A model generated the notes under the pieces. That model saw only the letters and a program-made list of their open reading frames with translations. It was not told where the DNA came from and searched no databases. Below, piece after piece: positions 9,771 through 9,822 of a stretch of 64,000 nucleotides of DNA; the stretch's first letter is position 1, and each line of letters opens with the position of its first letter. The stretch covers positions 47,700,848 through 47,764,847 of the forward strand of contig JAVMKO010000010.1 in NCBI GenBank assembly GCA_032164245.1, in the 5' to 3' direction. A program made the translations under genes and the position numbers. This stretch comes from Sternotherus odoratus (lineage: Eukaryota; Chordata; Testudines; Kinosternidae).

Positions 9771-9822
9771 CTTCGCGTGCCTTGAGCAACACGGTGTTGG
9801 CGACGATGTTCTCCAGCTCCAT
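9771..9822 (-). pseudogene. GRK5/GRK6-type first coding exon inside a transposon
   Basis: On the minus strand an ATG in good context (CCCATGG, 9822-9820) opens [17 protein letters not shown] plus the first base of a Gly codon. It then meets GT at 9770-9769 (GAAG|GTGGGG), a usable splice donor. To my knowledge this 18-residue N-terminus is that of the G protein-coupled receptor kinases GRK5 and GRK6; GRK4 differs at several of these positions. The N-terminal helix of these kinases contacts activated receptors and the kinase domain. Only exon 1 is present: no RGS or kinase domain follows in the window. It lies between hAT ends with an 8-bp target duplication, so it is read as a captured copy and not the native gene. 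The alternative, a native exon by chance between the ends, is less likely. Confidence 0.85.

Follow-up and report, generated by a model that had tools for sequence, protein, structure and literature searches.

A GRK6 promoter and first coding exon carried through the genome of Sternotherus odoratus by a non-autonomous hAT transposon

The window, i.e., the whole stretch of 64,000 nucleotides that was analyzed (C10:47700848-47764847 in the 1.76 Gb genome), contains a hAT transposon which has captured a fragment of the host gene GRK6 and which, for the loci read, has multiplied by transposition. It is very probable that a non-autonomous hAT acquired the GRK6 promoter, exon 1 and the start of intron 1 and then multiplied by transposition, and that its copies are portable cassettes of promoter, start codon and splice donor. 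The segment acquired would comprise a core promoter of about 150 bp, the exon with the start codon and splice donor, and the first part of intron 1. It was probably captured once, as judged from the common breakpoint and structure. This chimeric element would then have multiplied in a cut-and-paste manner, with the transposase presumably supplied in trans, the outcome being at least 144 recognisable exon copies that are presumed to lie in the element. In the window the element is composed as follows.

8691-8698, no strand assigned: 3′ copy of the target duplication (minus strand: TTTATACA)
8699-10344, minus strand: non-autonomous hAT (Pack-hAT) with GRK6 cassette, 1646 bp, with inverted ends and target duplication; present at 39 other loci, whole or in part
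8699-8873, minus strand: hAT 3′ end, the least diverged of eight regions compared
8808-8813, minus strand (the strand of the GRK exon): AATAAA, 3′ of the stop codon of the tail
8874-9050, minus strand: open frame that closes with a stop codon after what may be the C-terminal tail of a hAT transposase
9051-9371, minus strand: stretch between the intron-1 array and the tail
9372-9977, minus strand: segment derived from GRK6 (core promoter of about 150 bp including the CCAAT box, exon 1, intron-1 repeat array), from BLAST and breakpoint scan against native GRK6 (L073)
9771-9822, minus strand: coding part of GRK6 exon 1, with the GT donor at 9769-9770
9978-10200, minus strand: GC-rich block, 223 bp, with inverted CCAAT and E-box motifs
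10201-10344, minus strand: hAT 5′ end with ACGGGAC subterminal repeats, common to the other end
10345-10352, no strand assigned: 5′ copy of the target duplication in element orientation (minus strand: TTTATATA)

The inverted ends of 13 bp (TAGGCTGACCATA, at 8699-8711 and 10332-10344) match each other without a single mismatch, and the target duplication agrees at seven of its eight positions (TTTATATA vs. TTTATACA), both as the preliminary description of this stretch had reported. The GC-rich block directly upstream of the GRK6 segment had no match in the 270 bp of native GRK6 flank that were read and is possibly a second captured piece. As neither this block nor the stretch at 9051-9371 has an assigned origin, the capture may have taken place in several steps.

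Re-reading of the minus strand from 9822 to 9771 gave the coordinates, frame, ATG and GT donor that had been described: 52 nt running from ATG to GAAG, which encode 17 residues and (G) and are followed by GT. In a phmmer search of solved structures, residues 1-21 (the 18 exon-encoded ones, all of them identical as had been proposed, plus 3 G) equalled GRK5 and GRK6 in the PDB. The best match was GRK6 (2acx, E 4.5e-7), with GRK5 likewise matching residue for residue (E about 5e-7), and the PDB matches at E up to 1 comprised 10 distinct sequences, every one a GRK4, GRK5 or GRK6. The solved GRK5 and GRK6 proteins matched here are mammalian, and their sharing of the N-terminus indicates that the sequence moved from the host into the element. 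The N-terminal 18 residues of GRK6 form a helix serving receptor docking. Chance can be excluded for the exon, as an 11-residue codon pattern derived from it had 76 matches in the whole genome and the reversed-pattern control had none. A GRK5 query against the window matched exon 1 and, among the matches listed, nothing further below E 3. The ratio of observed to expected CpG is 0.93 in 9771-9960 (190 bp, from the 3′ end of the exon upstream) vs. 0.22 in the whole window.

With ATG, frame and donor intact and the upstream sequence rich in CpG, the exon could in principle be the 5′ end of a GRK gene native to this locus, the TIR-like ends being coincidental. This reading is practically without probability. 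In a protein search of the genome, GRK5 mapped to C5, GRK6 to C8 and a GRK4-like gene to C4; a fourth gene of the GRK4/5/6 type was located on C20 (C20:13885731-13928788). No GRK exon was found near the window locus on C10, where the only row was a weak kinase match 4.2 Mb away. Thus the continuation of a native GRK gene at the locus, which the preliminary description had named as the observation that would overturn it, is excluded. Moreover, 39 other loci have this exon within this element too, and the reading is finally refuted by the native GRK6 exon 1, which is located at C8:616079, 8 kb before exon 2 (C8:624022), on the same strand as exon 2 and the later exons.

Native GRK6, read over C8:615660-616360, codes for the identical 18 residues, after which comes GTGGGGGG, and its core promoter also matches that of the element, so that the native exon 1 with matching promoter sought for the earlier proposal does exist. 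C8:616079 is not itself an element copy, as nothing in its upstream flank corresponds to the block that the element has next to the GRK6 segment. On the promoter side, homology according to BLAST starts at C8:615928-615936 in 38 elements, i.e., 143-151 bp upstream of the ATG, at the CCAAT box. A scan in 15-bp bins, which covered 36 of the 38 elements (two had no anchor), exhibited an increase in identity to the native sequence from 0.12-0.53 to 0.99 at C8:615935; the bins from there to the end of the exon ranged from 0.58 to 0.97, the low bin being gapped. The promoter-side breakpoint is sharp and common to the elements scanned. The block consensus (positions 224-438) matched native GRK6 in 194 of 221 alignment columns, 18 columns being gaps.

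On the intron side, where native intron 1 was read up to C8:616360 (the breakpoint was placed on the promoter side), homology extends into an array of 85-bp-period repeats and scored 117 bits, compared with at most 41 bits in 200 shuffles. This bears on the idea that GRK6 mRNA gave rise to a processed (retro-) copy which landed in a hAT, for which the 5′ UTR and coding start could be the remains of a truncated retrocopy. But exon 1 runs straight into intron 1 with its donor, about 400 bp match the native intron-1 array and the insert also holds sequence upstream to the CCAAT box; the intron homology refutes a retrocopy, to which we would assign next to no weight.

The parent of the captured segment is GRK6. 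The exon of one copy (L039) is identical to native GRK6 in all 52 nt, and the usual exon 32-mer of the copies has no difference to GRK6, three to the C20 paralog and six to GRK5, the GRK5 and C20 exon-1 32-mers having been assigned by their position upstream of exon 2. From the proposed GRK5/GRK6 type, GRK6 therefore stands as the source and GRK5 does not. Excluding CpG sites, the mean difference to native GRK6 was 4.6%, while CpG sites differed at 17% (36 elements). Among the candidates tried as parent, GRK5 and the C20 paralog were rejected with exon-1 32-mers that are off by 6/32 and 3/32 nt, respectively, from that of GRK6, with which the usual copy 32-mer is identical; the GRK4-like gene on C4 had no listed match of the 11-residue pattern nearby. 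Walks upstream from the GRK6 and C20 exons (L070-L072) had no yield, and an 18-mer scan of viral contigs gave two matches with no similarity past the end of the 18-mer.

The search of the genome with 9771-10200 as query gave 40 scored matches out of 937 candidates, namely the window and 39 further loci, which, being picked by their similarity to the block of the window, are not a random sample. These loci were 87-96% identical to that block, nearly all over the full length, and all 39 fetched loci contained the block together with at least one hAT end. The preliminary description had named other hAT copies with the same block as support, and many were found; its captured exon is indeed a capture, but it belongs to a set of at least 144 presumed element copies and is not a single case. 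Limits of the element could be set in 37 copies (in L032, which lacks the 5′ end, by extrapolation), whereas L047 and L052 are partial. A target duplication of at least 7/8 was present in 35 of the 37 measured copies, 27 of them perfect and all of them different, with only L032 and L057 falling below this value. The 13-bp ends were perfect or had one or two changes in 36/37 copies, the exception again being L032. A query with the 3′ end only gave 40 scored matches out of 1231 candidates, and the eight best loci, the window included, all contain block sequence.

Instead of transposition, segmental duplication or a tandem or satellite array might have produced the copies, and there are two observations which could be taken in this way. 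Five copies lie within about 330 kb on C6 and form one clade, and the 600-bp flanks of the 37 copies, when compared, gave 13 matches between loci, three of them with more than 88% identity. None of these 13 matches, however, adjoins the element, the copies are spread over many contigs, and the different 8-bp duplications in 35/37 copies refute this explanation, whose probability is negligible. For the five C6 copies (L021, L022, L025, L027 and L031; C6:96.30-96.63 Mb; clade support 0.976), the different target duplications together with the lack of adjoining flank homology suggest local hopping.

Genome-wide, a 44-nt exon pattern with up to three mismatches had 146 matches and its control none. 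At least 144 of these are presumed to be element copies, one being native GRK6 and one possibly the C20 gene; that the exon matches beyond the fetched loci also lie within the element is extrapolated from the loci read. From the 76 matches of the 11-residue pattern, three were taken as native (GRK6, which was read, as well as GRK5 and the C20 gene by position and strand upstream of exon 2) and 73 are presumed element copies. A 42-nt pattern of the 3′ end, again with up to three mismatches, had 2,949 matches vs. none for its control. For the first 100 3′ ends listed, all of them on C1 and without mismatch, a listed exon lies on the same strand 0.8-2 kb upstream in at least eight cases; this comparison took in 22 of the 27 C1 exons listed, the other five lying beyond the listed 3′ ends, and left out exons with three mismatches. 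Although a lower bound, the figure suggests that a well-kept exon is missing from many elements of the wider family, in contrast to the eight best 3′-end matches.

The state of the copies was assessed in an alignment of 32 of the 40 copies, including the window; L032, L033, L045, L047, L050, L052, L054 and L055, being truncated, interrupted or partial, were left out. Relative to the majority, non-CpG sites had diverged by 0.9% in the 3′ end, by 1.9% in the exon and by 2.6-3.4% in the surroundings of the exon. The ATG is kept in 30/32 copies, the GT donor in 27/32 and an open 52-nt frame in 26/32; frame and donor are both kept in 21/32. With donors in 27/32 and the exact peptide in 10/32, many copies could no longer yield an intact exon. 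Non-CpG exon changes were synonymous in ten cases and not in 11 (10/21; a simple model expects 27% synonymous) and CpG exon changes in 16 and not in 20 (16/36; expected 40%), with changes inherited by several copies counting repeatedly. The synonymous excess together with the lost frames and donors would fit decay rather than clear constraint. Six copies (L033, L045, L047, L050, L054 and L055) are interrupted by later insertions, and the match overlaps at their junctions are in some cases 9-10 bp and in some 2 bp, as in nested hAT and Tc1/mariner elements.

The open frame at 8874-9050 (minus strand; ...KFYDKVLKDRNLLRKITSSEKYSW...) had been described as a hAT transposase tail. This was not borne out by the searches, which yielded no Pfam family at E up to 10 and, among proteins, two candidates, neither at E up to 1. 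Its end resembles, in our judgement, the C-termini of hAT transposases, and a tail of this kind is plausible. One might then suppose that the hAT hijacked the promoter of GRK6 to express its transposase. GRK6 exon 1 would have served as the first exon of the element, joined by splicing to a transposase exon, in an autonomous ancestor that has left here no more than the last codons and the poly(A) signal. The arrangement of GRK6 promoter, exon 1 and donor upstream of the possible tail, stop codon and AATAAA, all on one strand, would agree with this, but the tail lacks any profile or protein match, and such a hijack appears distinctly improbable.

Turning to known systems, Tan et al. 2021 (PMC8277862) report 370 Pack-TIRs in 100 animal genomes, 208 of them in hATs and four multicopy. 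In the GRK6-carrying element, host sequence (GRK6 promoter, exon 1 and intron 1) lies between both ends of one TIR element, the parental host copy is present in the genome as the native exon 1 on C8, and the copies have distinct target duplications. It is thus a multicopy Pack-TIR by the definition given there. Host-gene capture by a vertebrate hAT, which had been judged unusual, has precedents (PMC8277862). One of them is Pack-hAT-N8_XT of the western clawed frog, which is present on three chromosomes and captured 291 bp of the CAPSL 5′ UTR (PMC8277862). Both elements have hAT ends and target duplications around a fragment of a host gene, are multicopy by transposition and contain a 5′ gene part; unlike the frog element as described in that source, the GRK6 element has at least 144 presumed exon copies and includes core promoter, coding start exon, donor and intron 1.

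A further parallel is HelibatN3 of vespertilionid bats (PMC4778049), which captured the NUBPL promoter, a coding start of six residues and a donor and was amplified. It acts as an exon trap in HeLa cells and drives a few bat transcripts, and the number of copies attained there by promoters, from 15 genes, is 4,690 (PMC4778049). Both HelibatN3 and the GRK6 element are an amplified unit of promoter, coding start and splice donor; the former is a rolling-circle Helitron whose function was tested, the latter a cut-and-paste hAT with inverted ends. By analogy, the GRK6 element may be regarded as the hAT counterpart of HelibatN3/NUBPL. Plant Pack-MULEs and Pack-TYPE elements are likewise non-autonomous DNA transposons with pieces of host genes (PMC8903248), but differ as plant elements from a vertebrate hAT with one captured locus.

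No earlier account of a GRK6 first exon in a hAT, or of exon capture by a hAT in turtles, was found in the mostly non-subscription literature covered, in which the term Pack-TIR occurs in one paper; a prior description, e.g., in a repeat database, is possible. Among animals, cut-and-paste transposons rarely carry captured host genes in multicopy form, with four such cases in the 100 genomes of Tan et al. 2021 (PMC8277862). The GRK6 element family, which has at least 144 presumed copies, a parent that is known and a breakpoint that is single and sharp, can show how often a mobile promoter with start exon and donor joins new genes, and in what way a CpG-island promoter, once captured, decays or avoids being silenced. 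If a copy lies within a gene, or upstream of one, and is suitably oriented, GRK6 residues 1-18 could become joined by splicing to the exons that follow, and this spread of the GRK6 on-switch and first coding piece could permit new hybrid genes. By analogy with known exon-trapping elements, it is conceivable, albeit rather unlikely, that the element acts as a genome-wide exon trap which put the GRK6 promoter and N-terminal 18 residues onto other host genes, with at least one chimeric transcript made and retained in the lineage.

Further elements were observed elsewhere in the window. A second GC- and CpG-rich hAT-like element at 52027-52802 has TAGGGTGACCAGA ends and an 8-bp duplication (AGTTAGCA) and has about 45 bp of its end in common with the GRK6 element (82%). 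At 50947-51621, a CpG-rich element which we take to be of Tc1/mariner type runs from CAGTAAACCCTCGATTTAACGGAC... to ...CGAGGTTTCACTG; it is GC-rich inside and flanked by TA at either end. Two CpG-rich blocks resemble young DNA transposons, one at 42388-42679 with an 8-bp duplication (GCCTAGAG) and one at 63580-64000, which ends at the edge of the window.
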